DNA of 55,143 nt, from the NCBI GenBank assembly GCA_019429105.1, contig JAHYJE010000024.1:1-55143 (forward strand), given 5' to 3'. The position numbers and the translations under genes were made by a program. The stretch comes from Syntrophobacterales bacterium. GTDB taxonomy: Bacteria > Desulfobacterota > Syntrophia > Syntrophales > UBA5619. The notes beneath the pieces were generated by a model. That model made no database searches, was not told where the DNA came from, and was given only the letters and a program-made list of their open reading frames with translations. The stretch's first letter is position 1; each line of letters starts with the position of its first letter. Shown here piece after piece: positions 14,799 to 32,158 of the stretch.

Positions 14799-15702
14799 AT
14801 GAAAAAATATTTTTTAATTGGGTTCGCTTTAATTATCGTCTCAGGGATTGCGGATGCTTCCGCACGGGTACTTCCCCGGATGATTATCTCTGTTGAAAAT
14901 ACGGATGACCACTTTCAAAGCGTTGCCGTCAAGAGTTTTGCCGATGAATTAAAGGAAAAACTTGCCGGACGGATTGATGTTCAATTTTTTTCCAACGCCC
15001 GTCTCTTCAGGGATAAAGATGTTGTCCAGGCCTTGGCTCAGGAAAAGCTTGAGATGGCTGTGCCCGGAACCTGGAATGTCACTCAATTCGAACCGAATGT
15101 CGGAGTTTTTTTGCTTTCGGTTTTCTATGGCAGACCGGCCGAGGCCAATTACAGGGTTCTGGAAAGCGCTGTCGGAAAAAGCATCAACCGGGAGCTGGAA
15201 AACCATCTCCCGATAAAGGTGCTGGGCCGGTGGCTTGATCTTGGCCATGCCCATATTTTCGGAATCAACAAGAAAATTTCCAAACACTGAGGATATTGAA
15301 GGTCTCCGGGTGAGGGTGGCTGGCGGCGCCGCCAATGAATTGAGGATAAAGGCATTGGGCGGAAAGCCGCTGATTGTGCCATGGCCGGATCTTCCCGAAT
15401 ATATGGAGCGAGGCCGGGTGGATGCGGTATTGACCAGTTATGAAACGATCCAGAGCGCCCGGCTCTGGGAACGGGGGATCAAGTTCGCGTTTGAAGACAA
15501 TGAATATTTTCCCCAATATATACCCATGATCCGTTTATCTTTCTGGAACAAATTATCACCGGCTCTCCAACAAATTGTAACAGAAACATGGGAGAAGCAC
15601 ATCGGCGCGTCCCGCAAACAGGCAGCGGAAGCCCAAATCAGGGCTAAAGGCCTGCTTGTCCAAAATGGTGTTGAAGTTGCCATCTTTCGAAGAACACCGT
15701 GA
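14799..15702 (+). pseudogene. DctP-like TRAP solute-binding domain, frameshifted
   Basis: From ATG 14799 a lipophilic signal peptide (KKYFLIGFALIIVSGIADAS) is followed by a DctP-type periplasmic binding domain (FADELKEKLAGRIDVQFF, ALAQEKLEMAVPGTWN). This frame ends at 15290. The homologous remainder continues in the next frame from about 15275 (TEDIEGLRVRVAGG, then WPDLPEYMERGRVDAV) to 15702. One extra base near 15272-15285 explains the break. TRAP binding proteins deliver acids to DctQM permeases, but no dctQ or dctM is adjacent. The frame breaks again at 15650-15700 into a sensor-like segment, so the chain may once have been one polypeptide. Pseudogene or assembly error cannot be told apart here. 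Confidence 0.75.
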
Positions 15703-16565
15703 TTCCTGGGTGGATTTTTCTATCGGCGCTGTCTTTGCCGCCAATAAGGAGGCAAAAATTCTGATAAGTCAGCGGGTGGAAAATCAGGATGCCGAATTTG
15801 CCGGCGTTCTGGCGGCTTTTTTGGACCCAATTGTTTTCTATAATCAGTACGCCGACTATCTCAATATCGATGTTGATGCGATTGCGCTGTTCGACATGCA
15901 AGGAACGACCATTACAAGCTGGATCAACCACAATAATGTTTCACAAAAATTCCTCGGGACAGACATTCGCACCATCCCGCTCTTCTCGGCGTTAAGGCAA
16001 AACGTTGCAAGCGGCGGTGGGCGTAGAACCCACGAAGACGCCGAGACGATTATTTCTACGTTTCAATTATCCGGATTTCCTTTTCAAATTGCCGTTTCGT
16101 ACAGCAAAAAAAAATGTCCTCCAAAAATGGCGTCGGGAAACAATCCGCTACCTTATGATAATTGGCGCAACCATTTTCATAGTGATATTCACGATCGCCT
16201 TAAGCTTTCAGCAAAGAAAACGGCGACGAAAGGCTGAGTTAGAGATTGTCCAATATCATGAGCGCCTGGAAGAAACCGTTGGAAAACGGACTCAGGAACT
16301 ATCGGAAACAAATAAAGCGCTGCAGCAAACAAAAGATGAACTCAACAAAGCGCTTATTGAAGTCAAAACATTGAGCGGCATGCTGCCGATCTGCTCCTAC
16401 TGCAAAAAAATCAGGGATGACAAGGGCTATTGGAACCAGCTCGAAGCTTACATTCATGATCACTCGGAGGCTCAATTCAGCCACGGCATCTGTCCGGAAT
16501 GCGCCCGAAAATACTTCCCGGAGATTTACGGCAAGGACAAAGACCATTCCGGAGACAGTGCGTAG
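15656..16565 (+). pseudogene. Sensor-like segment: extracytoplasmic domain, TM helix, coiled coil, Cys-rich tail (frameshifted)
   Basis: One frame (15656-16237) encodes a probable extracytoplasmic sensing domain: HRDSWVDFSIGAVFAANKEA, then an FLDPIVFYNQYADYLN stretch. A run of nine A residues at about 16106 shifts the frame. The homologous continuation runs to 16565 with one membrane helix (MIIGATIFIVIFTIALSF), a basic exit, a coiled coil (EETVGKRTQELSETNKALQQ) and the C-terminal motif LPICSYCKKIRDDKGYW ... FSHGICPECARKYFPE, common at the end of Desulfobacterota signalling proteins. There is no kinase, GGDEF or methyl-accepting domain. The N-terminal membrane anchor is missing, so this was either fused to the upstream DctP-like part or is truncated. 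Confidence 0.7.
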
Positions 16566-16616: not shown

Positions 16617-16771
16617 TTTAAAAGTAGCTTATTTCCTTAAATCCATGTCTGATTTCAGATCGACGGGATCGTCGTCGAGGACGATTACGTGGGCGGATTT
16701 GCGCCCGATGACAACCGGGATGATCGTTTTGTTGCGACCGGCAAACTCGCGCAGGCCAAAATAGCGGTCGG
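16617..16771 (-). pseudogene. Displaced 3' end of kup
   Basis: On the minus strand this piece reads the last about 45 codons of Kup in frame, down to VDLKS and then DMDLRK and a TAA at 16637-16639. It is identical to the resident kup 3' end except for one base (16737), up to the point where the resident gene instead ends TGAD. It has no upstream part of kup. It is best read as the original kup terminus left behind when the neighbouring element inserted. Confidence 0.8.
16650..16771. repeat. Left 122-bp direct repeat (att-like)
   Basis: Bases 16650-16771 match 34800-34921 in the same orientation with a single mismatch (A at 16737, C at 34887). Similarity stops abruptly on both sides. The pair bounds an 18-kb block and behaves like attachment-site duplicates at the 3' end of kup. 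Confidence 0.9.
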
Positions 16772-17292
16772 TCGGGAAAGAAAACACCGCACCAAGCTCA
16801 GCAAAGGCTGTGCCGAGCCACAGGGCAGAGGGAAGGGCCGACGCCGTCCCTAGCCGAACGCGGAAGGGAAAGATGCAGGCGGCGTGACCGGGCTGGAGCA
16901 GAGGACTTTGTCATGTTCGCCCGTCAACTCCCTGCCCTTTTGGGGTTTGGCGCTGCCGCGTGGCAGGTCGAGCTTCAAGAAAATACTGAACCATTAACGC
17001 CTACGCATAACGGGGTTAAACGAATATTTACAAAAAATATTTCAGAAGTGCTTGAATCGCCATGGGAAAAGTTGTACAAGAATGCGCGAAATTTGTGGGT
17101 GCGCCTTCAAGGAAGAGGAAGGCAGACAGCAAAAACCCGTCGAGATTCCGGGGAAACTCTTTCACAAATCCACAAGCGTAGTATATCCGGCGGTTCTGTG
17201 TCCCGCCTGCAAGAAAGATTACGGCATACTCAGCCGGATGGGTCTTGGCACATAACGTTTCTTGTCAGTTCTCAGGGGGAATAAAATCATTA

Positions 17293-20154
17293 ATGAATAT
17301 TCCTGTTCTCGCCCCCGGCGCACGGGTTCTGATCAGAGACGCCGAATGGCTTGTCCGCAAGGTGGATCGCACAGCCAACGGCAGTCAGGCTGTATCTGTG
17401 GTTGGGCTCTCCCAGATCGTCAAGGACCGGGAGGCCATTTTCCTGGAGGAGATCGACCGGATCGAACCCCTCAATCCCGCCGATACGGATCTCGTCGCCG
17501 ACACCTCCAGCTATTACCGCGATTCTCTCCTCTTCATGGAAAGCCTGCTCCGGCAGACCCCTCCAACCGATGAGTATCTCTACATCGGCCATCGGGGCGC
17601 CATGGATATCGTCCCCTATCAACTCGATCCGGCCATCCAGGCCCTGAAGCAGCCCCGGCAGCGCATCCTGATCGCCGACGCCGTCGGCCTCGGCAAGACC
17701 ATCGAGGCGGGCATCCTCCTGTCCGAGCTAATCCGTCGTGGAAAGGGAAAGCGCATCCTGGTCCTCACGGTAAAAAGCATGCTCACCCAGTTTCAGAAGG
17801 AACTCTGGAGCCGCTTCACCATTCCCCTTACGCGCCTCGATTCAGTCGGCCTTCAGCGGGTCCGTTCCCGCATCCCGACGAACCACAACCCCTTTTACTA
17901 CTTTGATCGGGCGATCATCTCCATAGATACCCTCAAGCAGGACGCCGAATATCGAACTTACCTGGAAAAATGCTACTGGGATGTGATCGTTATCGACGAG
18001 GCCCACAACGTGGCCGCCCGGGGAACCGATTCCGCCTCCCTTTCCATGCGCTATCGCCTGGCGAACCTCCTGAAGCACCGATCGGACGCCCTGATCATGC
18101 TCTCGGCCACGCCCCATGACGGCAAGCCCCGGGCTTTCGCGAGCCTGATGAACATGCTCAACCCGACAGCTATCGCCGATCCGGAAGACTACGGCCCCGA
18201 GGATATCAAGGGACTCTTCATCCGCCGCTTCAAAAAAGACATCAAGGACCAGGTCGCCAAATCCTTCAAGGAGAGGAAGATCGCCGTGGCAAAGTGCCAG
18301 GCGTCTCCTGCGGAAGAAAAAGCCTTCGACGTTTTTACCCAGATGACCTTTACCCGTCTGGACCAGCGGCATACGGCCGGCAAGCTCTTCAAGACCACCC
18401 TGGAAAAGGCCCTCTTTTCCAGCCCGGCGGCCTGCCTCCAGACCATTGAAAACCGGATCTCGCACCTGCAAAAGGAAGACGGAGACAATGCGGTCAAGGA
18501 TATCCAGGCGTTGCAAACCTTGGCCGAGGCACTTCAGCCCGTGGGGCCGAAAAACTTCAGCAAATATCAGAAGCTCCTCTCCGTCATCCGGGATCCCTTT
18601 CACGGTTTTGACTGGACCGGGAGAGATACCAAGGACCGTCTGGTGATCTTCACCGAACGGATCGATACCCTGGGTTTTCTCGCCGAACATCTGCCCGGCG
18701 ATCTGGGTCTCAAAGAGGACCAAATTGCCATCCTGCATGGCAGCCTTTCCGACGTAGATCAACAGCAGATCGTCGAGGACTTCGGCCGCGAGGAGGCGCC
18801 TGTCCGGCTTCTCCTCGCTTCGGATGTGGCCTCCGAGGGGATTAACCTCCATTTTCTCTGCCATCGGATGATCCATTTCGACATCCCCTGGTCCTTCATG
18901 TGTTTTCAGCAACGCAACGGCCGGATCGACCGATACGGCCAGGAGCGGGAGCCCTGGATAGTCTATCTGATGACGGAAAGCGTCAGCGAGAAGATCAAGG
19001 GAGACAACCGCATCCTGGAACTGCTGATCACGAAAGACGAGCAGGCCGTAAAGAACATCGGCGATCCCTCGGCCCTGATGGGCGTCTATGACATGGAAGA
19101 GGAAGAGCGGATCACCGCCGCCGCAATCGAGGCGGGGGCCGGCGCAGCCGACTTCGAGAACCTCCTGCAGAAGGCGCCCAAGGACCCCCTCGGCCTGCTT
19201 ATGGGAAACGAGATCATCCCAACGGGCGAAGGAGCGCCAAGTGCCCAGAAGCAAATGCCCTCGTTCTTTGCGGACGATTTTTCCTTCTTCCGCGAGGCGC
19301 TCGAATACCTGAAGAGCTTTCAGCCCCTGCAAATGGTCTTTGATGTCCCCGCCCGGACGGTCAACTTCGCCCTCCCCCTGAACCTGAAGCATGAGTTGGA
19401 GCAGCGGTTCCGCTTCCTTCCACCGGAGATCTGGCCGGAAAGCGGGGAGTTCATCCTTTCTGCCGACCGCAATCAGATCATGGATGAGATTCGCCGGACC
19501 CGCAAGAAGGAGGCGACCTGGCCGAAGATGCATCTCCTCTGGGACCTTCATCCCCTGATGCGCTGGCTCAACGACAAACTCCTGGCTGTCTTTGGCCGCC
19601 ATCAGGCCCCCGTCCTGACCCTGCCGGGGAAACTGGAAGCGAGGGAAGTCCTCTTTATCCTCTCCGGGATCATCCCCAACCGGAAAAGCCAGCCCCTGAT
19701 CGCCTCCTGGATCGGGGTCCGTTTTCTGGGCGGCCGGTTTGACGCCGTCGTTGATTTCCCGGCCATCCTGGTGCGGACAGGACTGGACGGTGAGAAAGTT
19801 CCCAACCAAGGCAAACTGTTCGACAAAGAGGCCCTCAAAAAGATGCTCCCCGAGGCCATTGTCAAGGCCGGGGAATGGATGCACCAGCGGCGCAAAGAGT
19901 TTGAAACCATGACGGATGCCAAGCTCAACGCTCAGATGGCCGAATTGGATCGCCTCAAACAGAAGCGGTATCGGCAATTGGAGTTTGAGTTCGCCAAGGC
20001 GGCGCCGACCACCCGCGCCCAGGAGCGCAAGGAGCGGGACCAGCGAGAGATCGACCGCATCTTTGCTGAATACCTGTCGTGGATCGAAAATTCCATCCTT
20101 ACAGAGGATGTCCCCTATATCCGGGTGGTCGCCGTGCTGAAAGGAGAGGCGTGA
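17293..20154 (+). CDS. SNF2-family helicase, DrmD-like (DISARM-type defence)
   Basis: A 953-aa SWI2/SNF2 ATPase. The N-terminal beta-rich segment (PGARVLIRDAEWLVRKVDRT) precedes the Walker A loop DAVGLGKTIEA near residue 128, a DEAH box (VIDEAHNVA) near 233, LSATPHDG near 270, and helicase motifs V-VI (SDVASEGINLHF ... QRNGRIDRYGQ) near 505-550. The charged, helical C-terminus is about 400 residues. This size and N-terminal wording match the DrmD helicase of class 1 DISARM systems, which accompany an adenine methyltransferase, exactly as here. ATG 17293 is favoured over an upstream start because the domain begins at NIPVLAPG. The stop overlaps the next start (TGATG). Confidence 0.85.
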   Translation: MNIPVLAPGARVLIRDAEWLVRKVDRTANGSQAVSVVGLSQIVKDREAIFLEEIDRIEPLNPADTDLVADTSSYYRDSLLFMESLLRQTPPTDEYLYIGHRGAMDIVPYQLDPAIQALKQPRQRILIADAVGLGKTIEAGILLSELIRRGKGKRILVLTVKSMLTQFQKELWSRFTIPLTRLDSVGLQRVRSRIPTNHNPFYYFDRAIISIDTLKQDAEYRTYLEKCYWDVIVIDEAHNVAARGTDSASLSMRYRLANLLKHRSDALIMLSATPHDGKPRAFASLMNMLNPTAIADPEDYGPEDIKGLFIRRFKKDIKDQVAKSFKERKIAVAKCQASPAEEKAFDVFTQMTFTRLDQRHTAGKLFKTTLEKALFSSPAACLQTIENRISHLQKEDGDNAVKDIQALQTLAEALQPVGPKNFSKYQKLLSVIRDPFHGFDWTGRDTKDRLVIFTERIDTLGFLAEHLPGDLGLKEDQIAILHGSLSDVDQQQIVEDFGREEAPVRLLLASDVASEGINLHFLCHRMIHFDIPWSFMCFQQRNGRIDRYGQEREPWIVYLMTESVSEKIKGDNRILELLITKDEQAVKNIGDPSALMGVYDMEEEERITAAAIEAGAGAADFENLLQKAPKDPLGLLMGNEIIPTGEGAPSAQKQMPSFFADDFSFFREALEYLKSFQPLQMVFDVPARTVNFALPLNLKHELEQRFRFLPPEIWPESGEFILSADRNQIMDEIRRTRKKEATWPKMHLLWDLHPLMRWLNDKLLAVFGRHQAPVLTLPGKLEAREVLFILSGIIPNRKSQPLIASWIGVRFLGGRFDAVVDFPAILVRTGLDGEKVPNQGKLFDKEALKKMLPEAIVKAGEWMHQRRKEFETMTDAKLNAQMAELDRLKQKRYRQLEFEFAKAAPTTRAQERKERDQREIDRIFAEYLSWIENSILTEDVPYIRVVAVLKGEA

Positions 20155-23100
20155 TGGCCCTCGATCTCACCGGCATCGCGAACGAAAACGAATTCTACAC
20201 CCACCATTACCTGACGGTTCTGCTGGAAAACGACCTCAAGGGGCTCTTTACCGCCTGGGAGGAGCGAGAGACAAGGGAGGGTGTCAAACCGCCCCAGGAT
20301 CAACTTGCCCGTCACAATAGGAATTATTTCACCCTTCGCAAGACGATGGAACGGCTCCGTACAATAGAGGAGATCCTTCCCTGTCAGCGGGAGTTCTTCC
20401 CCACCCTTCTGGAGAGCCTGGGTTATACCTACGAACCGGCCCTTAAAGAATTGGATTCGGGCGCCCTCTTCCCCGTCATTGGCGAAATCCGCAAGAAGGA
20501 CGGCGCGCCGGAACTCTGGATCGTCGAGGCGGCCGCCCCCCTGTCGGATGACCCCGACCCGCTGGACCTGCCCCTGACGGCAGCCCACTACGGGGAGGCA
20601 GACGCAGCCCAGATGCTCTTGGAGATCCCCCTTTCGGACCTCATGACAAAACAGGTCTTTACCCAGACGGAGCCGCCCCGCTGGGTCCTCATCTTGAGCA
20701 TTTCCCACATCATCCTTCTTGACCGGAGCAAGTGGAACGAGAGGCGCTACCTCCGCTTCGACCTGCCGGAGATTCTGGGTCGGCGGGCGCCATCCACCCT
20801 GAAGGCGACAGCGGCCCTCCTCCATCGGCAGAGTATCTGCCCGGAAGACGGCATCAGCCTCCTCGATACCCTGGATGAGAATTCCCACAAGCACGCCTTC
20901 GCCGTCTCCGAGGACCTCAAGTATTCTGCCCGGGAGGCCGTGGAACTCCTCGGCAATGAGGCCATCTTCTACATCCGGCAGAAGCGCAAGGAGGGCGTCT
21001 TCGGGGACCGAGGCGGCGAAGCCCTGGACGCGGATAAGCTGACGCGGGAGTGCCTGCGCTACCTCTACCGGCTCCTGTTTCTCTTCTACATCGAGGCCCG
21101 GCCGGAGCTGGGCTACGCCCCCATGAATAGCGAGGAGTACCGCACCGGCTACAGCCTCGATGCCCTGCGGGACCTGGAATTGAATCTCCTTTCGGAGGAA
21201 TCGTCGCGGGAGGGCTATTTCATCAATGACTCACTCCAGACCCTCTTTCCCCTCATCTTCGAAGGGTTCAATTACGAACGGACGACAGCCGTTCTCACCT
21301 TCGAGGAACAGCGCCCCGTATTCCGTCTCTACCCTCTGAATTGCCATCTCTTCGATCCGGCCCGGACCCCGCTTCTCAACGGCGTAAAATTCCGCAACGG
21401 CATCCTCCAGAAGGTAATCGAGCTTCTCTCCCTCTCCCGCGCCGGGAATGGCCGACATCGTCGTGGCCGCATCAGCTACGCCCAACTCGGGATCAACCAG
21501 CTCGGAGCCGTTTACGAGGGGCTCCTCTCCTACACCGGCTTTTTTGCCGAAACGGATCTCTATGAAGTCAAAAAGGCGGGAACAGAGGTCAACGAGCTGG
21601 AGGCCGCCTTTTTCGTCAATGCCGAAGATTTCCCGCAGTATGAGGAGTCCGAGCGGGTTTACAACACCGATGGGACGCATCGGATCTATCCCCGCGGGAC
21701 ATTCATTTACCGCTTGGCGGGCCGGAATCGGGAGAAGACCGCCTCCTACTACACCCCTGAGGTCCTCACCCGCTGCCTTGTCAAATACGCCCTGAAGGAA
21801 CTCCTCAAGGACAAGACGGCGGACGACATCCTGAAGCTGACCGTCTGCGAGCTGGCCATGGGGAGCGCCGCCTTCCTCAACGAGGCAATCAACCAGTTGG
21901 CCGATGCCTATCTGGAGAGAAAACAGAAGGAAACGGGTGAAACGATCGGCCATGACGACTACGGCCGGGAGAAGCAGAAGGTCAAGGCCTTCCTGGCCGA
22001 CAACAACGTCTTCGGCGTGGACCTGAACCCCGTGGCAGTGGAACTGGCCGAGGTTTCCCTCTGGCTCAACGCCATTTATGTGGGCCAGGACGGCGAAACA
22101 CCCATTATCCCCTGGTTCGGGAACCAACTCGTCTGTGGCAACTCCCTTGTCGGCGCCCGGCGCCAGGTCTTTGATGCCGAACTCCTGGAAGAAAACCGCA
22201 AGGGAAAGGAAACCTGGCTGGATGTCGTCCCGGATCGGGTCCCACTGGGCAAGCCCCGGCCGCCGAAATCGGTTTACCATTTTCTCCTGCCCGATGCGGG
22301 CATGGCCAACTACACCGACCGGGTCGTCCGTGGAATGGCCAGGAAGGAAACGGAGACGATCAAGGCCTGGCGAAAGGATTTCATCCGGCCGTTTAATGCC
22401 GGCGAGATCGAGACCTTGCAGCGGCTCTCCGACGCCGTGGACAAACTCTGGCACCGGCATGTGGCACAATCCGCCCAGATCCGTTTCCAAACCAGGTCCG
22501 CTTATAAATTCTTCGGCTATGACGATGAAAATATCTACAAGCAGTCCCTGACGACGAAACAGAAAGATGACCTCTTCAACCGGGAGCTTCTTTCGGAGAA
22601 TATCGCCAACTCCAGCCCCTTCCGCCGTCTCAAGCTCGTCATGGACTACTGGTGCGCCCTCTGGTTCTGGCCGATCCAGGAAGCGGAAAAGCTCCCTTCC
22701 AGGGACGAGTTCCTCATGGATCTGACCCTGATCCTCGAAGGGTCGGTCTATGAAACCGTTCCAGCCGCGGGAGAGCAGTTGTCGCTTCTTCCCGACAACC
22801 GCCCAACGCAGCAGGACTTGGCTCTGACGAACGAATTCGGCCATGTGAACGTTGATTCCCTTTGCCAAAACATTGAGCGACTCGCTCTGGTCCGTGCCCT
22901 GGCAGATAAACATAATTTCCATCATTGGGAACTCGTCTTCGCCGACATTTTCGCCGATCACGGCGGCTTCGATCTCAATGTCGGAAACCCGCCGTGGATC
23001 AAGATCGAATGGAATGAAGGAGGGCTTCTTGGCGATTACGATCCGCTGTTCGTCATTCGGAACACCTCAGCACCCCAAATGGCCAACCTGAGGGAGAAGG

Positions 23101-24884
23101 CCATTGAGAAGCGGAGCATCCGCGGCGAATACCTCAATGAATATATAGGATTTCAAGGGACACAAAACTTCCTGAATGCCTATCAGAATTATCCGGTCTT
23201 GAAAGGGACGCAATCAAACCTCTACAAGTGTTTCCTTCCCCAAGCCTGGATGATCGGAACAAGTCAGGGTGTATCAGGATTTCTGCATCCTGAGGGGGTC
23301 TATGATGATCCCAATGGGGGAAAGTTGCGAGAGGAGATCTACCGTCGTCTCCAGTATCATTTCCAGTTTGTCAATGTGAAAAAACTTTTTTCAGAGATTC
23401 TTCATTGGGTTACATATTCAATCAACGTATACAGGAAGCGGGTTGACAGGATTTCTTTCTCCACCATGTCCAATTTGTTCGTCCCTCAAACCATAGATGC
23501 ATCCTTTCTGAATACGGGAACAGGGAAAGCAGCTGGAATCAAGGGTGATGCTGGGAGTTGGAACACTACCGGACATAAAGATAGGATTATTTCTGTTGAT
23601 GAAACGGCTCTGCAGCAATTCGCCGAATTATACGACGAACATGGCACACCTATCCTACATGCTCGCCTTCCTGCCCTGCATACCCGACAGATCGCCGACG
23701 TATTGAAAAAATTTTCGGCCCAAGAACAACGCCTTGGAGATCTGAGAAGTGAATATTTTTCAACAGTTATGTTTGATGAAACTAACGCTCCAAAGCTTGG
23801 TACGATTATAAGAGCAACCCAGTTTGCAGACACGCCGGGAAACTGGATACTCTCCGGTCCACATTTCTATGTGGCTAATCCTTTTTATAAAACGCCAAAT
23901 GCGGTATGTGATAAGCATCATGAATATGAATGCATTGATCTGTCAGAACTCCCCGACGATTACCTGCCCAGGACCAATTATGTGCCCGCCTGCGATCCCG
24001 CAGCATATCGGGAGAAGACACCAAAGGTCACTTGGGATCAGTACCATTCGGCCACAGATTATTATCGGGTGGTTTATCGTAGTATGCTGTCGCAATCAGG
24101 CGAAAGAACGCTGGTCAGCGCAATCATTCCCCCAGGGACTGCGCATATAAATGGCGCACAGACTGCAGCATTCAAAGATATTTCTGCCCTTCTAACAAGC
24201 GCTTTCATAGCAACCTCTTTAGTCAGTGACTTTTACATTAAGTCCACCGGAAGGAGCAATCTGCACCATATTTGGGAGAACCTTCCACTCTTTGATATAA
24301 TGCCCTCTGGTAAAATACGAATTCTCTTACTTAACTGCCTAACCAATCATTACACCGGTCTCTGGAAAGAATGCTGGAACGAGGCCTTCCGTCAGGAGTG
24401 CTGGACAAAGAGCGATCCCCGCCTCGACAAGGAGAAATTCGCCAAACTGACCCTGAAATGGCAACGCAACTGTGCCCTCCGGATGGATTATGAACGGCGG
24501 CAGGCCCTCGTGGAGATTGACGTCTTAGCGGCAATGGCCCTCGGCCTCACCCTGGACGAACTCTGCACGATCTACCGGATCCAGTTCCCCGTCCTGCGGC
24601 AGAACGAGAACGACACCTGGTACGAACAAAACGGCCGGATCGTTTTCACGTGCAGCAAGGGCCTCCCCGGTGTCGGTTTCTCACGTGCGGAGTGGAACGA
24701 GATCAAAGATGTCGCATCGGGAACCATCACCCGGACCATAGTGGACGACACCCTCCCCGGCGGTCCCCGGGAGCGCACCATCACCTATGCCGCCCCCTTC
24801 GACCGCTGCGACCGTGAAGCCGACTACGCTACCGCCTGGGCAGCCTTTGAAAAGCTGGGGATGGGAGCTAATCGGTCAAAATGA
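20154..24884 (+). CDS. Large N6-adenine DNA methyltransferase (Eco57I/PglX/DrmMI-like)
   Basis: A 1576-aa DNA methyltransferase of the gamma type. The SAM-binding motif I is ELAMGSAAFL near residue 565, VFGVDLNPVAVELAEVSLWLN follows near 618, and the catalytic motif IV is NPPW near 944. About 560 residues of N-terminal helical domain precede it. A C-terminal region of about 600 residues should hold target recognition. Bases about 23,090-24,340 (residues about 980-1395) are visibly more AT-rich than the rest, as expected for an exchanged recognition domain. Translation is coupled to the SNF2 gene. It probably methylates host DNA to mark self for the system, though a restriction role is possible. 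The last codons lie in a 35-bp repeat. Confidence 0.88.
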   Translation: MALDLTGIANENEFYTHHYLTVLLENDLKGLFTAWEERETREGVKPPQDQLARHNRNYFTLRKTMERLRTIEEILPCQREFFPTLLESLGYTYEPALKELDSGALFPVIGEIRKKDGAPELWIVEAAAPLSDDPDPLDLPLTAAHYGEADAAQMLLEIPLSDLMTKQVFTQTEPPRWVLILSISHIILLDRSKWNERRYLRFDLPEILGRRAPSTLKATAALLHRQSICPEDGISLLDTLDENSHKHAFAVSEDLKYSAREAVELLGNEAIFYIRQKRKEGVFGDRGGEALDADKLTRECLRYLYRLLFLFYIEARPELGYAPMNSEEYRTGYSLDALRDLELNLLSEESSREGYFINDSLQTLFPLIFEGFNYERTTAVLTFEEQRPVFRLYPLNCHLFDPARTPLLNGVKFRNGILQKVIELLSLSRAGNGRHRRGRISYAQLGINQLGAVYEGLLSYTGFFAETDLYEVKKAGTEVNELEAAFFVNAEDFPQYEESERVYNTDGTHRIYPRGTFIYRLAGRNREKTASYYTPEVLTRCLVKYALKELLKDKTADDILKLTVCELAMGSAAFLNEAINQLADAYLERKQKETGETIGHDDYGREKQKVKAFLADNNVFGVDLNPVAVELAEVSLWLNAIYVGQDGETPIIPWFGNQLVCGNSLVGARRQVFDAELLEENRKGKETWLDVVPDRVPLGKPRPPKSVYHFLLPDAGMANYTDRVVRGMARKETETIKAWRKDFIRPFNAGEIETLQRLSDAVDKLWHRHVAQSAQIRFQTRSAYKFFGYDDENIYKQSLTTKQKDDLFNRELLSENIANSSPFRRLKLVMDYWCALWFWPIQEAEKLPSRDEFLMDLTLILEGSVYETVPAAGEQLSLLPDNRPTQQDLALTNEFGHVNVDSLCQNIERLALVRALADKHNFHHWELVFADIFADHGGFDLNVGNPPWIKIEWNEGGLLGDYDPLFVIRNTSAPQMANLREKAIEKRSIRGEYLNEYIGFQGTQNFLNAYQNYPVLKGTQSNLYKCFLPQAWMIGTSQGVSGFLHPEGVYDDPNGGKLREEIYRRLQYHFQFVNVKKLFSEILHWVTYSINVYRKRVDRISFSTMSNLFVPQTIDASFLNTGTGKAAGIKGDAGSWNTTGHKDRIISVDETALQQFAELYDEHGTPILHARLPALHTRQIADVLKKFSAQEQRLGDLRSEYFSTVMFDETNAPKLGTIIRATQFADTPGNWILSGPHFYVANPFYKTPNAVCDKHHEYECIDLSELPDDYLPRTNYVPACDPAAYREKTPKVTWDQYHSATDYYRVVYRSMLSQSGERTLVSAIIPPGTAHINGAQTAAFKDISALLTSAFIATSLVSDFYIKSTGRSNLHHIWENLPLFDIMPSGKIRILLLNCLTNHYTGLWKECWNEAFRQECWTKSDPRLDKEKFAKLTLKWQRNCALRMDYERRQALVEIDVLAAMALGLTLDELCTIYRIQFPVLRQNENDTWYEQNGRIVFTCSKGLPGVGFSRAEWNEIKDVASGTITRTIVDDTLPGGPRERTITYAAPFDRCDREADYATAWAAFEKLGMGANRSK

Positions 24885-24909
24885 ATCGTCACTGATTGAT
24901 CATTCCAGG
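24875..24909. repeat. 35-bp direct repeat, copy 1
   Basis: Identical to 24945-24979, with a 70-bp start-to-start distance. The stop codon of the methyltransferase (24882-24884) falls inside this copy, so the repeat sets the protein's last residues. Origin unknown. Confidence 0.9.
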
Positions 24910-24944
24910 CCGGCGCCGATGCCGGAAAGATTAATACCGAGTTT

Positions 24945-24979
24945 GTCAAAATGAATCGTCACTGATTGATCATTCCAGG
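24945..24979. repeat. 35-bp direct repeat, copy 2
   Basis: Second identical copy, 65 bp upstream of the higB start. Each copy contains imperfectly palindromic AATGAATC ... GATTGATCATT. It may be an element end or a binding site for the HigA antitoxin; the sequence alone does not decide. Confidence 0.85.
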
Positions 24980-25044
24980 GGCTTTACGCTGGTTCCCATT
25001 TAAGGAACTTTTGCCTTGACAGTGGCCGTAAAATGAGGTAGCTA

Positions 25045-25344
25045 ATGCACATAGTATCACGGAAGACGTTGAAATCATTTTATGAAGGATCGGATTATTG
25101 CGATGCTAAAGGTCCCCTGGAATCGTGGTTTCACGAAGTTTGTAATGAAGAATGGAAGACGCCTTCCGACGTCAAAGTAAAATACAGGTCAGCCAGTTTC
25201 TTGAAGGACAACCGCATCGTGTTCAATATCGGCGGCAATAAGTATCGTTTGGTGGTTAAAGTGAATTATTCGTTGAAAATAGTGTTCATACGCTTTGTGG
25301 GCGCCCACGCGGAATATGACAAGATTGACGCGGAGGTGGTCTGA
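25045..25344 (+). CDS. HigB-type toxin (RelE-superfamily mRNA interferase)
   Basis: The 99-aa protein matches the HigB toxin family: N-terminal MHIVSRKTLKSFYE, a helix with PLESWFHEV, ADVKV-like strand region, then NIGGNKYRLVVKVNY and the C-terminal strand IVFIRFVGAHAEYDKID. HigB toxins cut mRNA on the ribosome. The ATG has GAGGT upstream. The stop overlaps the ATG of the antitoxin gene (TGATG), the usual toxin-first order of higBA. It lies inside the defence cluster, between the methyltransferase and the large helicase, where it may stabilise the island or act as an abortive arm. Family call is strong; a role in the defence system is inference. Confidence 0.88.
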   Translation: MHIVSRKTLKSFYEGSDYCDAKGPLESWFHEVCNEEWKTPSDVKVKYRSASFLKDNRIVFNIGGNKYRLVVKVNYSLKIVFIRFVGAHAEYDKIDAEVV

Positions 25345-25766
25345 TGATTTCCAGGGTGATCAAGACAGAAGACGATTATCAAAAGGCGCTGGCCCGAATC
25401 GAAGAACTTATGGAGGCCGAAGCCGGCACGCCGGAAGGGGATGAGTTGGAACTGCTTTCCGCATTGGTTGGATTATACGAGGAAAAGCAATATCCGATTT
25501 CCTTGCCCGATCCGCTGGAGGCCATCAAGTTTCGCATGGAGCAGATGGGGCTGCGACAGAAGGATATGGTAAGCTACCTGGGCAGCAAGAGCAAGGCGTC
25601 GGAGATCCTAAACGGCAAGAAACATCTAACCCTCAGAATGATGCGGGCCTTGCACAGGGATTTGGGCATCCCGGCGGATGTTCTCCTGCATTCAAGACAA
25701 CCCCAATTCCCTATTGCGGTTCCGGCAACGCCGGAAACCAATTTGGGAAGACAAGAGGTTAGATAA
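25344..25766 (+). CDS. HigA-type antitoxin (HTH)
   Basis: A 140-aa antitoxin. An N-terminal helical part (about 1-50, EDDYQKALARIEELMEAEAG) is followed by a Cro/C1-type helix-turn-helix at about 65-115, with IKFRMEQMGLRQKDMVSYLG and ASEILNGKKHLTLRMMRALH. It ends in a short proline-rich tail. It overlaps higB and would bind both the toxin and the operon promoter. The antitoxin is slightly longer than typical E. coli HigA but normal for this group. No other regulator is present in the island, so it could also influence the downstream helicase genes, 79 bp away. That last point is speculation. Confidence 0.9.
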   Translation: MISRVIKTEDDYQKALARIEELMEAEAGTPEGDELELLSALVGLYEEKQYPISLPDPLEAIKFRMEQMGLRQKDMVSYLGSKSKASEILNGKKHLTLRMMRALHRDLGIPADVLLHSRQPQFPIAVPATPETNLGRQEVR

Positions 25767-25845
25767 GCAGTTATATCCCTGAGTACCTTTGAACGAAATG
25801 GAACTTCTCAGCATTTGCTGAAAGGCAATTGAAAAACGAGGGAAG

Positions 25846-28800
25846 ATGATCCCATCCGTCCTGTCGAGTCAGATTCAGAGAGGCATTGAGGACTTTCTCA
25901 AGACGACCTTCCCGGTTTCCACGCCTTTTTTCCATGGCGTGATGGACCGCTTTCTGAACGAGGATGGCGGCATTTTCAAGGGGCCTTATCTTTCGATCAG
26001 GCTTCCCTACCGAACAGCGGCCATCGGGCAGGACTACTTCCCCGGCATCCCCCTTCATTTTACGCCCTACCTCCATCAGGAACAGGCCTTTCGCAGGCTT
26101 TCCGGGGAACGGCCTTTATCCACCATCATCGCCACGGGAACCGGTTCGGGAAAGACGGAGTCTTTTCTCTATCCCATTCTGGATTACTGCTGGCGACACC
26201 GGGGCGAACCGGGCATTAAGGCGATCATCATCTACCCCATGAATGCCTTGGCCACGGACCAGGCCAAACGCATCGCCCGGTTGATTGATGACAACCCGAA
26301 TCTGAAGAACCAGCTCAAAGCGGGTCTCTATATTGGTGGTCAGCAGGGCGAAAAGGCATCACAGGTCATGGGGCATGAGCAGCTCATCACCGATCGTGAG
26401 ACCCTGCGTCTTAAGCCCCCGGACATCCTGCTTACGAACTACAAGATGCTCGATTATCTGCTGATCCGGCCGCGTGACTTGCCCCTGTGGAAGGAAAACC
26501 GGCCGGAAACCATGAAATATCTGGTGGTCGATGAGATTCATACCTTTGACGGCGCCCAGGGAACGGATCTGGCCTGCCTGATCCGGCGCTTGAAAAGCAG
26601 GCTGAAGATGGAGAAGGGCCACCTTTGCTGCGTGGGGACCTCCGCCACTTTGGGCGAAGGGAATGACAGGCGGGTGGGCCTGTATGCGGAAAAGGTGTTT
26701 GGCGAGACCTTTCCCCCTGAAGCCATCATCACGGAGTCCCTCGTCACGGCGGAGGAGTTTCTGGCAGACAGTCCAATGGAGCGCAGCCTGGTGATTCCGC
26801 CGGAACAGATGGCGGCTTTGAACCCGGACAGCTATGAGAATGACCAGGCGTACCTCAAGGCCCAGTACGAGCTTTGGTTTGGGGAAAAGCCGATTAACAA
26901 TGAGACCTGGCCTGTTCAGGTGGCGGAGAAGCTGGGGAATCACGGTTTTTTCGGAAAACTCGTTCTGGCACTTAACGGCAGGATCGTACCCATCGATGAG
27001 CTGACCCTGCTGTTCGAGCGGTTCACGCCCGAATTTGCCGCTGCGCCCGCTGAGTATAAGCGTCTGGTCATGGACAGCATGATCGCCCTGATCTCGGCGG
27101 CCAGGGTCGTAATGGGAAACGGACTGTCACCCTTCCTTAACGTCCGTTTGCAGCTCTGGCTCCGGGAACTCCGCCGGATCGTCGGCAACGTCGGAGAGCC
27201 GCCGGCACTCCGCTTTTCCGATGACCTTCGAGGCGAGGACCAGTGCCGGCATCTCCCCGTCCTCCACTGTCGAGAGTGTGGCGCCATGGGATGGGGCGGA
27301 ACGAAACGCGAGCAGGATCAAAATATCAATCCGGACCTGCAACATTTCTACGCCTCCTTCTTCCATTATAGTCCGACGGTGGTGGCCCTTTTCCCCGTCG
27401 AAGGAACGTCGGAGGGCGCGCAGCAAGAATTCGGCTGGGTGGTGTGCGGTGACTGTCTGCACGTGGCCCTGGGGGAAAACGTCAAAGACGCCGCCTGTCC
27501 GGCGTGCGGCGCCAGGAATCGCCTGATTCCGGTCTTCATGCCGAACCAGAGGAGAAAAGAAAGGGACGCCGTGAAAGGCAGCCATGACTGTCCCTATTGC
27601 CAGGGTTACAACAGCCTGACCATCCTTGGTTCGCGGGCGGCAAGCCTGACAAGCGTGGCCATCAGTCAGCTTTATGCCTCAAAATTCAACAATGACAAGA
27701 AACTCCTGACCTTTTCCGACTCCGTGCAAGATGCTGCTCACCGGGCCGGTTTTTTCGCTGCCCGGACGTACCGGTTCAATCTCCGGGGAGCGATTCAGAA
27801 GTTTTTAATCGAACAGGCGACCGAACAGCTTCTGACAAAAATCCCTGCTGGTTTTGTCCGGTACTGGCAAAAAAAGCTGGGAGAGGAAACTTTCATTGCC
27901 ACGTTCCTGCCGCCGGACATGGCCTGGCTCACCGATTACGAAGTGCTGGTGGAGTCGGGAAAGTTGCCCCCGGAATCGACTCTCCTGGAGGAATTGGCAA
28001 AAAGGATCGATTGGGAAATCATCAGTGAGTACGGCTTCAACAGCCGGATCGGCCGGACCCTGGAAAAGACAAGTTCTTCCGTGGCCTGCGTGGAACCCGC
28101 TCGACTCCGGGATGCAGCAGATGCGCTTTGCGAAACCCTGCGCAATGAAATAGGGCTGCTGCGGGACCTCGACGGAGAGACGGTCGCACGGTTCCTGGTC
28201 GGATTTTTGACCCAGTTGCGGACAAAGGGCGCCCTGTGCCATCCGGCCCTTCAAACGTACGTCGATAATTGGGGAAGTTGCTTTTTAACCAATAAAATAA
28301 GATGGATGCCAAGCTTCGGCCGTTTTTCCCGGACGCCGGCTTTCCTGACCACCAAACGCGGTGTCCGCTTCGACACCCTCATGAGCGGAGGGAAATCCCG
28401 ACCCACCTGGTACGAAGACTGGCTTCGAAAATGCTTTGGTTCCATCCATCCCCAGATCGGCGAATACGGAGAAGCCATCTTCCCGCTTGTGGTCCAGGCA
28501 CTCGTGAAGAAAGGGATATGCCGGGAAAGGCAAGTCCAGGGAAGCCCCGTCTGGGGAATAGACGCGGATCATTTAAGCGTCACCCGCAGGGTGGTTCAGT
28601 TCCGGTGTCAGACGTGCAGCCATAATGTTTCCGTTGCTGCCGGCGAAGAAGCCCTGTGGCAGGATAATGCCTGCCTGCGCTACACCTGCCAGGGGCGGTA
28701 CGACAGGGAGGCGCCGGCAGAGGACTATTATGGGCACCTTTATGCAACCGGCGATGTGCAGCGACTTTTTGCCGCCGAACACACCGGGCTTCTCAAGAGA

Positions 28801-31800
28801 GAGAAAAGGGAAACCATAGAGAAGCGGTTCATGGCCGATGATTCCCCTTCCGGTTCTCCTAACCTCCTGTCCTGTACGCCAACCCTGGAACTGGGGATCG
28901 ACATCGGCGATCTTTCCTCCGTCATTCTCTGCTCCGTACCACCCGCTCAGGCCAATTACATGCAGCGTATCGGTCGTTCCGGACGGAAGAACGGAAACTC
29001 CTTCAATTTGACCGTCGCCAACGGCCGACCCCACGATCTGTATTTTTATGCCGAACCCAAGGCAATGCTTGCCGGCGGGATGGAGCCTCCGGGCTGTTTT
29101 ATCGACGCGCCGGCTGTTCTGGAGCGACAGATGACGGCCTTTTGCTTTGACCGCTGGATCGAGTCTGGCATTCCCGTGACGGCCATTCCCGAAAAACTGG
29201 GCCAGGTTCTGGGGCAATTGGGGGGCCATGGGAATAACAAGAAATTTCCGTTCAACCTGATCCAGTATGTGGAACACCATCGCAGTCAACTGCTGGCCGA
29301 CTTTATATCGCTGTTCGAAGACGCCTTGACAGCATCCTCAAAGGAGCATATCCGCGGGTTCATTTATGGCAACGCCGAGGGAATAAAGAGCCTGACCTAT
29401 CGGATCATCGAACGGCTCACCGGCCTTGACAAGGAACGCGCCAGTCTCCGCAAAAGGGTTCAGAAGCTGAATCAATTCATCAAGGAAAAAGAAGCCAATC
29501 CGATTCGTGATCAAAACTATGCGGACCACATGGATGATCTCCTCCGGGAAAAGGCGGCCCTCAACAGCATCATTCGCCGGATGAATGAAAAGGAAATCTA
29601 CAATTTCTTTACCGATGAGGGGCTCTTGCCCAACTATGCCTTTCCGGAAGCCGGCATCATGTTGCAGTCGATCATCTATAAAAAGAAGGCCAAACCCGAC
29701 AAAGAGGGATCATACAAGACGACGACCTATGAATACGAACGCCCTGCCGCTTCTGCAATCCATGAACTGGCGCCGGACAACCATTTCTATGCGGAAGGGC
29801 GAAAGGTCAAGGTGGATCAGGTCAATTTGACCCTTTCCGAAAGCGAGGAATGGCGCTTTTGCGACAGTTGTTCCCATATGGAGCTGGCAGCGACGGGCGA
29901 TACTACAGCCACATGCCCTTCCTGCGGCAGTGTCATGTGGAGCGATGACGGCCAGAAACGGCGGATGATCCGCATGCGACAGGTGATGGCGACCACATCC
30001 GATCGAGACAGTCGCATTCAGGATGATCATGATGAGCGTGAGCCTGAATTCTTTCACAAACAGCTCCTTCTGGACATGGATGAATCTTCCGTAGAATCGG
30101 CATTCAAAATCAGCGATGAGGATTTCCCCTTCGGGATGGAATTCGTCCGCAAGGTCACATTCCGGGAGATGAATTTCGGCAAGCGGGACAATGGGAGTGA
30201 GACCATCCTGATTGCCGGCAAAGAATACCCGAAAGACGGCTTCGCCATCTGCCGCGTGTGCGGGAAGGTTCAGGGAAACAAGGAACCAAGGCATACCCTG
30301 GCCTGTCCCCAGAAGGATGCCGACCCGAAAAAGAACATTCTCGATTTCCTCTATTTTTACCGTGAATTTTCATCCCAGGCATTACGGATTCTTCTGCCGG
30401 CAAAACCCCTTTCCTCGCAGGACAGAACCCTTTCTTCATTCACCGCGGCCCTCTATCTGGGGTTGAAAAAGAAATTCGAAGGGAATATCGATCACCTGAG
30501 AACAACCATCCATGAAGAACCCTCACCTGATCATCACTACCGGAAACGATACCTGGTCCTGTATGACATGGTCCCCGGCGGAACGGGGTATCTGAAGGAG
30601 CTCATGCAAAACGAACAGCCGCTCATGGATGTTTTTCAGATGGCTCTGGACACCTTAAAGGCCTGCGTTTGTCATCAGGATTCTGAAAAGGATGGCTGCT
30701 ATCGCTGTCTCTATGCTTACAGGAATAACTTTGAGCGGAACAATACTTCCCGTGATACGGCCATCGAGCTCTTGTCTGAAATCCTCAAGCGCCGGGAACA
30801 CCTGGTCAAAACCGACTCCCTGAAAAACATGTCGGGCAATCCCCTTCTGGACAGCGAATTGGAGGAGCGCTTCATCGAGGCTTTGCGATCCTATGCGGCG
30901 AAGGATATCAAAGTGACCCTTCGCCAGGAGATCGTCAACCAAAAACCCGGCTGGTACCTTAAAGTGAATGACAGGGCCTATTACATTGTTCCGCAGGTCG
31001 AACTGGGGGCTGCGGACGGCGTTGCCGTTCCATCCCGGGCGGATTTTGTCTTTTACCCGGTGCGGCATAACGAAGGCAAGCCCATCGCCGTCTTCACGGA
31101 CGGCTTCATGTATCACGCCGGGAAGGGCGATCAGAATCGCATCGGCAAGGACATGTCGCAAAGAATGGCCATCGTCCGGAGCAAACGATACCGAGTTTGG
31201 TCACTGTCTTGGGACGATGTGGAAAACAGTCTCCAAAAAAAAGGCGGCCATTATGACAATTTCCTGAGCGATCGGAAAGAGAGGGTCAATGCACTGCACG
31301 CCCAATATGACGATCTCTTCCGCGTCCAGCGATTGGCGGGGCTCCGTGATCAATCAGGTTTTGATATGCTTATGGCCTGGCTTGCCGATCCGGAACCGCG
31401 GATGTGGGAGATGCATGCCCTCATCCATGGGCTGGTTCATCTGGATTGCAGTTGCCGCGCGGAGGAGGGCCGGTCAATCGCCGATGGCTTGTGGCAAGAC
31501 GCCCCTTGGTCCGAAGTACGCTGTGAAATCAAGACAGACACGGCGGGCAATGCCCTGGCCGGCCTCTATCGGAAAGATCTTGGAGAGCTGCCCCTGATCA
31601 GGCTCATCGCCTGTTTGGCGAAGGAAGATTACGCGGAGAACCGGTTTCACAAGAACGCCATTATCTGCAGGTTTTTCGATGATGACGATCTTGCCGAAAC
31701 GCCCCATTTCAAGGCGGCGTGGAACGGTTTCATCCGGATGTACAACATCTATCAATTCATTCCGAATGCTATCTTCATCACCTCGAAAGGGATCGCCGAG

Positions 31801-32148
31801 GGACAATATCTGTGGCTGGAGACGGCAAATGATGGGGCTGTAAAGAAACCCGAATCGGTCTCGACAGCCCTTTCGAAATTGATGGAGGTAACGGATCTTA
31901 CGCTTCATGAACTGCTCTTGTTTTTGGCGAAGCATACTCTCCCCCTTCCCGAGGCCGGGTTTGAGCTTTGTAACGATAAGGATGAAGTCGTCGCTTCAGG
32001 AGAACTTTGCTGGCCGGAGAAAAAAATCGCGCTGCTCAGGGGTGATGAAATGTGGTTTGCAGGGGTATTTACCTCCCGGGGCTGGCGAACAGCGCCCCTT
32101 GACGATCTGGTGAGGGAACCGTTCAAATGCCTTGAATTACTCCAATAA
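25846..32148 (+). CDS. Giant DEAD/DEAH helicase with DUF1998-type C-terminus (DruE-like)
   Basis: A 2100-aa protein. Helicase domain 1 has ATGTGSGKTES near residue 96 and the DEIH box near 228, with GTSATLGEG near 265. A large insertion with Cys pairs follows (CRECG near 478, CPACG near 550, CPYCQ near 580). Helicase domain 2 has PTLELGIDIGDLSS near 1014 and QRIGRSGRKNG near 1040. The DUF1998-like part has CDSC ... CPSCGS near 1340 and CYRCLYAYRNN near 1615. Residues about 1660-1790 resemble a Vsr/PD-(D/E)XK fold (LEERFIEAL, RADFVFY, FTDGFMYH). The size and order match DruE of Druantia systems; fused DrmA/DrmB is the alternative. RBS GAGGGA precedes ATG. Confidence 0.82.
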   Translation: MIPSVLSSQIQRGIEDFLKTTFPVSTPFFHGVMDRFLNEDGGIFKGPYLSIRLPYRTAAIGQDYFPGIPLHFTPYLHQEQAFRRLSGERPLSTIIATGTGSGKTESFLYPILDYCWRHRGEPGIKAIIIYPMNALATDQAKRIARLIDDNPNLKNQLKAGLYIGGQQGEKASQVMGHEQLITDRETLRLKPPDILLTNYKMLDYLLIRPRDLPLWKENRPETMKYLVVDEIHTFDGAQGTDLACLIRRLKSRLKMEKGHLCCVGTSATLGEGNDRRVGLYAEKVFGETFPPEAIITESLVTAEEFLADSPMERSLVIPPEQMAALNPDSYENDQAYLKAQYELWFGEKPINNETWPVQVAEKLGNHGFFGKLVLALNGRIVPIDELTLLFERFTPEFAAAPAEYKRLVMDSMIALISAARVVMGNGLSPFLNVRLQLWLRELRRIVGNVGEPPALRFSDDLRGEDQCRHLPVLHCRECGAMGWGGTKREQDQNINPDLQHFYASFFHYSPTVVALFPVEGTSEGAQQEFGWVVCGDCLHVALGENVKDAACPACGARNRLIPVFMPNQRRKERDAVKGSHDCPYCQGYNSLTILGSRAASLTSVAISQLYASKFNNDKKLLTFSDSVQDAAHRAGFFAARTYRFNLRGAIQKFLIEQATEQLLTKIPAGFVRYWQKKLGEETFIATFLPPDMAWLTDYEVLVESGKLPPESTLLEELAKRIDWEIISEYGFNSRIGRTLEKTSSSVACVEPARLRDAADALCETLRNEIGLLRDLDGETVARFLVGFLTQLRTKGALCHPALQTYVDNWGSCFLTNKIRWMPSFGRFSRTPAFLTTKRGVRFDTLMSGGKSRPTWYEDWLRKCFGSIHPQIGEYGEAIFPLVVQALVKKGICRERQVQGSPVWGIDADHLSVTRRVVQFRCQTCSHNVSVAAGEEALWQDNACLRYTCQGRYDREAPAEDYYGHLYATGDVQRLFAAEHTGLLKREKRETIEKRFMADDSPSGSPNLLSCTPTLELGIDIGDLSSVILCSVPPAQANYMQRIGRSGRKNGNSFNLTVANGRPHDLYFYAEPKAMLAGGMEPPGCFIDAPAVLERQMTAFCFDRWIESGIPVTAIPEKLGQVLGQLGGHGNNKKFPFNLIQYVEHHRSQLLADFISLFEDALTASSKEHIRGFIYGNAEGIKSLTYRIIERLTGLDKERASLRKRVQKLNQFIKEKEANPIRDQNYADHMDDLLREKAALNSIIRRMNEKEIYNFFTDEGLLPNYAFPEAGIMLQSIIYKKKAKPDKEGSYKTTTYEYERPAASAIHELAPDNHFYAEGRKVKVDQVNLTLSESEEWRFCDSCSHMELAATGDTTATCPSCGSVMWSDDGQKRRMIRMRQVMATTSDRDSRIQDDHDEREPEFFHKQLLLDMDESSVESAFKISDEDFPFGMEFVRKVTFREMNFGKRDNGSETILIAGKEYPKDGFAICRVCGKVQGNKEPRHTLACPQKDADPKKNILDFLYFYREFSSQALRILLPAKPLSSQDRTLSSFTAALYLGLKKKFEGNIDHLRTTIHEEPSPDHHYRKRYLVLYDMVPGGTGYLKELMQNEQPLMDVFQMALDTLKACVCHQDSEKDGCYRCLYAYRNNFERNNTSRDTAIELLSEILKRREHLVKTDSLKNMSGNPLLDSELEERFIEALRSYAAKDIKVTLRQEIVNQKPGWYLKVNDRAYYIVPQVELGAADGVAVPSRADFVFYPVRHNEGKPIAVFTDGFMYHAGKGDQNRIGKDMSQRMAIVRSKRYRVWSLSWDDVENSLQKKGGHYDNFLSDRKERVNALHAQYDDLFRVQRLAGLRDQSGFDMLMAWLADPEPRMWEMHALIHGLVHLDCSCRAEEGRSIADGLWQDAPWSEVRCEIKTDTAGNALAGLYRKDLGELPLIRLIACLAKEDYAENRFHKNAIICRFFDDDDLAETPHFKAAWNGFIRMYNIYQFIPNAIFITSKGIAEGQYLWLETANDGAVKKPESVSTALSKLMEVTDLTLHELLLFLAKHTLPLPEAGFELCNDKDEVVASGELCWPEKKIALLRGDEMWFAGVFTSRGWRTAPLDDLVREPFKCLELLQ

Positions 32149-32158
32149 GGAGATGAAA

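Follow-up and report, generated by a model that had tools for sequence, protein, structure and literature searches.

Solute-binding proteins as co-receptors

In Vibrio, the solute-binding protein (SBP) LuxP and its receptor LuxQ, which carries a dCache-like periplasmic domain, are encoded by adjacent genes; LuxP is a sugar-type SBP rather than a TRAP DctP protein, and LuxQ is a hybrid kinase. In Bacillus subtilis, DctB is a TRAP-type SBP, and the histidine kinase DctS has a single-module sensor of the CitA/DcuS type. SBPs activate sensor kinases, chemoreceptors and cyclases, and about ten of the kinases have been worked out (PMC9602780). DctB acts with DctS and DctA in C4-dicarboxylate sensing (Graf et al. 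2014, as summarized in PMC6978683), and BctC acts on BctE in citrate signalling in Bordetella (PMC5812351, PMC9602780).

Here we examine a locus in a 55,143-nucleotide contig from a Syntrophobacterales bacterium (JAHYJE010000024.1, the whole of which is called the window). By comparison with its relatives, the locus is very probably a pseudogenised two-gene SBP–receptor signalling pair, damaged by a deletion and two small frame breaks, and not a hidden fusion protein. Like DctB–DctS, the pair would combine a dicarboxylate-binding co-receptor with a membrane sensor, and the SBP gene adjoins the sensor gene at the 15 related loci described below; however, the sensor is of the dCache type rather than a single-module kinase, and the closest relatives have no kinase. 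The likeness to LuxP–LuxQ lies in an SBP and a dCache-like receptor encoded side by side, the differences in the sugar-type SBP and the hybrid kinase. In BctC–BctE, an SBP for a carboxylate that comes from a secondary transporter family binds a sensor kinase at its periplasmic domain, but BctC is a TctC-family protein in a complete transporter operon, whereas the SBP here belongs to the DctP family (PF03480, found also in the B. subtilis control genome) and has no permease beside it. Canonical dctPQM operons (L029, L104, L106) share the DctP fold and domain, with 31–36% identity to the SBP of Desulfamplus magnetovallimortis; there, DctQ and DctM genes follow, which are absent beside the sensor-associated SBPs.

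Segments and joins in the window

A first-pass annotation had read the locus as one chain broken by three single-base shifts, either a decayed gene or a novel solute-binding sensor fusion. The listing of open reading frames bears out its four segments on the plus strand, at 14799–15290, 15235–15702, 15656–16237 and 16005–16565, and the equal movement between them: the frames are 0, 1, 2 and 0 (start modulo 3), each step being +1. The closing stops lie at 15288, 15700, 16235 and 16563. All four segments show strong protein homology, far beyond chance, and none of the homologous stretches contains an in-frame nonsense codon. The features assigned are as follows.

14799–15287, plus strand: gene 1 remnant, N-terminal part of an orphan DctP-type TRAP SBP (PF03480 and D. 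magnetovallimortis homology)
about 14799–14864, plus strand: signal-peptide-like start of gene 1 (read by eye)
15284–15291, plus strand: first true frame break, in gene 1, outside any homopolymer (homology switch, stop at 15288)
15271–15684, plus strand: gene 1 remnant, C-terminal lobe in the next frame, ending ~40 residues early (PF03480 and alignment)
15675–15684, plus strand: deletion junction, where gene 1 homology ends against the interior of gene 2 (abutting homologies, overlapping by a few bases)
15677–16108, plus strand: gene 2 remnant, later part of the periplasmic dCache domain, first ~130–140 residues missing (alignment)
16106–16114, plus strand: run of nine A, second true frame break, within gene 2 (frame-2 homology ends, frame-0 homology begins)
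16115–16562, plus strand: gene 2 remnant, end of dCache domain, second membrane helix, coiled coil and CxxC...CPxC tail (D. magnetovallimortis homology)
~16143–16212, plus strand: second membrane helix of the gene 2 remnant
16392–16502, plus strand: Cys codons of the gene 2 tail

When ~85,000 genomes were scanned with the read-through chain minus its tail, one close relative emerged, D. magnetovallimortis (NZ_LT828546.1), in which the homologous region (L041:2809–5232) comprises an SBP gene (L041:2809–3882, 357 aa), 90 bp of spacer and a sensor gene (L041:3973–5232, 419 aa). This module and those of genomes G674, G810, G814, G796, G794 and G769 have the same two parts as the window, in the same order and with the same tail, but as two intact genes; the window copy is frame-broken and has lost the junction to a deletion. 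One DctP domain is split between segments 1 and 2, each of which scores above the Pfam cut-off for PF03480 (3.1e-17 over profile positions 4–128 and 1.3e-15 over 121–260), and the final ~25 profile positions are absent from the window and present in relatives. Segment 1 is 58% identical to D. magnetovallimortis SBP residues 23–185 and segment 2 is 65% identical to the same protein, its C-terminal remnant aligning with residues 180–317 of 357 (155–292 of 334 in the G674 SBP). Between the two segments, frame-0 homology runs up to ~15287 and frame-1 homology is back by ~15292.

Segments 3 and 4 likewise form one dCache–membrane helix–coiled-coil–CxxC protein, with 38% and 43% identity to the single D. 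magnetovallimortis sensor, the latter to its C-terminal part; the 15677–16108 remnant aligns with sensor residues 131–274 of 419 and with 144–286 of 429 in G674. In Pfam, segment 3 found no significant match and segment 4 none above the curated cut-off; even on the intact relatives dCache_1 scores 2e-6, below cut-off. The D. magnetovallimortis sensor nevertheless matches a putative kinase's extracellular domain (PDB 3lif) both in sequence (E 1.5e-6) and in fold (AF2 and Foldseek, E 2e-13). Its AF2 model places a membrane-and-stalk helix at 11–81, Cache modules at about 107–180 and 198–273 and, at 274–358, a second membrane helix that continues into the coiled coil. The intact relatives thus have a two-module Cache fold between two membrane helices, which in the window is incomplete; lacking sensor residues 1–130, the window has lost the first membrane helix (TM1), the stalk and the first strands of this model.

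The middle step differs from the other two. SBP homology in frame 1 ends at 15684, at residue 317 of 357 in D. magnetovallimortis, and sensor homology in frame 2 begins at 15677, already at residue 131 of 419. Measured against D. magnetovallimortis, 120 bp of SBP, the stop, the 90-bp spacer and 390 bp of sensor are missing, about 603 bp in all; against G674, whose two genes overlap, the figure is about 514 bp. With L065 and L041 as references, about 0.5–0.6 kb is absent from the window: the final ~40 DctP residues, the gene junction and the first ~130–140 receptor residues. From these alignments the step at ~15680 is a deletion join, not a one-base shift. Only a few bases at the join can be assigned to either side, probably too short a match for k-mer collapse during assembly. 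Of the three breaks first proposed, those at ~15288 and ~16106 stand, the second in a run of nine A as had been noted, each within a gene of its own. The parts listed earlier (signal peptide, TRAP-type binding domain, sensing domain, membrane helix, coiled coil and CxxC...CPxC tail) are likewise present, but they belong to two genes rather than one. Set beside its intact relatives, the locus has lost the last part of gene 1 and the first part of gene 2 to the deletion, which brought together what was left; one small frame break interrupts each remnant.

A single-chain DctP–sensor fusion whose frame was broken by sequencing or assembly errors would account for segments that lie on one strand, in order, and are free of internal stops in their own frames. 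Such a chain would, however, be short of ~40 DctP and about 130–140 sensor residues and so hold neither a complete SBP nor a complete dCache fold. The join also cuts into a domain on either side and brings a change of frame, and all 15 related loci keep two genes. We consider this reading very improbable.

Decay or assembly error could in principle produce the two smaller breaks. No interruption occurs in the window's 20 other open reading frames, which total 36.4 kb. That 1.8 kb should hold three lesions while 36 kb has none points to a cause specific to the locus; if lesions were spread evenly, the chance of two further ones joining the first in the same locus is about 0.002. The small frame breaks could still be assembly errors. 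If the deletion is real and one or both of them are such errors, a short hybrid reading frame may exist, for which the position of the 16106 break in a nine-A run and the lack of other nonsense lesions both speak. Against it, runs of eight to nine bases elsewhere in the window (nine G at 14355, nine A at 34252, eight A at 31235) lie inside intact frames, the ~15288 break is outside any homopolymer, and the hybrid would remain broken since the deletion join also shifts the frame. This alternative is unlikely, if less so than an intact fusion. Slippage at A9 runs is possible in replication and in transcription, and recovery of the frame by this route (phase variation) or by programmed frameshifting was considered on that ground and rejected: it would be needed three times per message, once at a deletion join, and the intact relatives examined require no frameshift. 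Its probability is the lowest of the three and close to nil.

We therefore return to a decayed gene pair, the half of the first-pass proposal that comparison with intact relatives supports. The absence of in-frame nonsense codons would be odd for an old pseudogene and suggests that decay is recent. The locus has a G+C content of 47.7% against 54–55% in its flanks, and a third-position G+C of 0.50–0.55 against 0.62–0.75 outside, which would fit acquisition from elsewhere followed by decay. The window's genome has 14 other DctP genes and no second intact copy of the pair. Almost certainly no working protein is made from the locus; the window copy itself has no mechanism and is a wreck.

The decayed pair stands at the edge of an island. 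Directly downstream, 17245–34303 holds a run of defence-like genes: an SNF2 helicase best matching DrmD, a 1601-aa type IIG restriction-methylase/DrmMI-like protein, a 2100-aa DruE-like DEAD/MZB helicase and a UvrD/GajB-like helicase. Within this run, a 140-aa open reading frame (25344–25766) matches only positions 4–124 of the 402-position PADLOC model PD-Lambda-2_B and is perhaps a truncated gene. In the gap after the locus, a 52-aa frame on the minus strand (16629–16787) ending FAGRNKTIIPVVIGRKSAHVIVLDDDPVDLKSDMDLRK may be the terminal part of a gene since lost.

The gene pair in intact relatives

A search of the D. magnetovallimortis order with the sensor added G674, whose sensor has 429 aa, and five genomes whose sensors are kinases of 925–977 aa; in all six a DctP gene lies directly upstream of the sensor gene (in G530, at C472:4505–5479). 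An SBP profile yielded seven further loci in that order, all with a sensor downstream, and one, G331, in the wider phylum; the order and phylum searches each sampled a few hundred genomes. The resulting 15 loci have SBP and receptor genes in that order on the same strand, the receptor ending in a CxxC tail (8 loci) or a histidine kinase (6), or cut by the contig end (1). Sought as a single chain with the same domain order, the fusion found no homologue: in none of the 15 does one reading frame span DctP and sensor. Long DctP-matching frames in G043 and G057 were rejected as sensor fusions, being, respectively, an ordinary TRAP operon and a read-through upstream of a DctP gene. The spacing between the two genes in the 14 genomes other than D. 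magnetovallimortis is mostly −41 to +96 bp, with a 4-bp overlap in two; L069 is an exception, with 528 bp between the SBP gene and the listed sensor start. Among the CxxC-tail relatives of the window pair are D. magnetovallimortis, G674, G810, G814, G796, G794 and G769, and a CxxC tail without a kinase characterises the window's own sub-clade. The sensors of G810 (L097:4979–6673, 564 aa) and G814 (L099:4919–6598, 559 aa) are longer than that of D. magnetovallimortis (419 aa), the extra residues lying between second membrane helix and tail.

Permease genes keep apart from these pairs. No DctM gene adjoins the loci of D. magnetovallimortis, G674, G530, G567, G472, G569 or G532, the closest on the same contig being 38–75 kb away, and none occurs within the window, where the SBP is therefore not part of a dctPQM operon; in L100 and L101, a dctM-like gene lies on the opposite strand about 1.5 kb past the sensor. 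All loci with an SBP profile E-value of 1e-105 or better adjoin a sensor, while unbroken loci scoring 1e-82 to 1e-92 have dctM as a neighbour, and in most cases dctQ as well; L103, which is frame-broken, gives 1e-90 and 1e-78 for its two SBP pieces. A maximum-likelihood tree places the window SBP inside the sensor-associated set (95/96) and groups it with two SBPs that have CxxC partners (98/99), with the SBPs of the window's own genome and of dctPQM operons outside the sensor-associated clade. One row of this tree (own_L007) is a wrong-strand sequence on a long branch that leaves the window's clade untouched.

Two other copies look damaged. In G832 (L103:3534–5782) the pair is frame-broken several times, in both genes and with no deletion, and in G834 (L102:1980–3948) the SBP C-terminus is absent and the sensor start intact. 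It seems that the pair decays repeatedly, or that the L103 and L102 assemblies are poor. Sampled relatives in the window's genus, family and order contained no such pair. Run against 395 genomes of the phylum, the sensor fragment found itself in the window and otherwise nothing but dCache kinases belonging to other proteins, one of which (G331) has an SBP adjoining. A plasmid search by DNA gave no match, and a search of the literature collection used here for a DctP–dCache gene pair found no paper. The combination seen in the intact relatives, a TRAP-type binding protein beside a membrane sensor, is little-described.

The cysteine tail and the proposed working of the intact pair

The window tail reads ICSYCKKIRDDKGYWNQ...FSHGICPEC and belongs to a family of 26 proteins with invariant C, C, C, C, W and H columns after the coiled coil. 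Modelled alone from the 26 relatives (pLDDT 85, pTM 0.46), the tail adopts a strand–helix–helix–strand–helix arrangement with the Cys pairs at strand–helix turns. A fold search of the PDB with this model returned nothing below E = 1, and no Pfam or NCBIfam model covers the tail. In other proteins it follows REC (9 of the 26), PAS (about 10), GAF, CHASE5, PocR or 7TM domains. The D. magnetovallimortis genome (G446) has 16 copies, a common C-terminal domain that recurs in L016–L028 and L043–L057; the window's own genome contains no other CxxC-tail protein. That the four cysteines bind a metal is a guess from the motif.

In the intact pair, gene 1 encodes an exported DctP-type SBP of the TRAP family with no TRAP permease nearby. 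The product of gene 2 is a membrane receptor whose dCache domain lies in the periplasm, followed by a coiled coil and, in the cytoplasm, a four-cysteine tail. To judge from the DctP family, the periplasmic ligand of the SBP is probably a small carboxylate; once loaded, the SBP would dock on the dCache receptor, and docking would alter the state of the coiled coil and its tail, or of the histidine kinase at those loci that have one instead. Ligand, docking and output of this kind seem somewhat more probable than not. The loci themselves display adjacency, a common strand, gene order, short spacing, no adjoining same-strand permease and co-variation of SBP clade with receptor. Intact copies probably work like DctB–DctS or LuxP–LuxQ, the SBP reporting its ligand to the receptor. 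The more specific proposal, a TRAP-type SBP given over wholly to signalling, with input to a dCache receptor that has nothing in the cytoplasm but a coiled coil and a probably metal-binding CxxC...CPxC domain, we hold with evenly divided confidence.

A false lead, a new fusion receptor, is thereby removed and a conserved gene pair put in its place. The CxxC tail appears as a common unnamed output domain on many types of sensor in the phylum, and its exchange for a histidine kinase behind the same SBP–dCache front end offers a handle on its function. With the pair recognised, an SBP can be read as a signalling co-receptor and not as part of a transporter, which changes how such 'dctP' genes are annotated in sulfate reducers.
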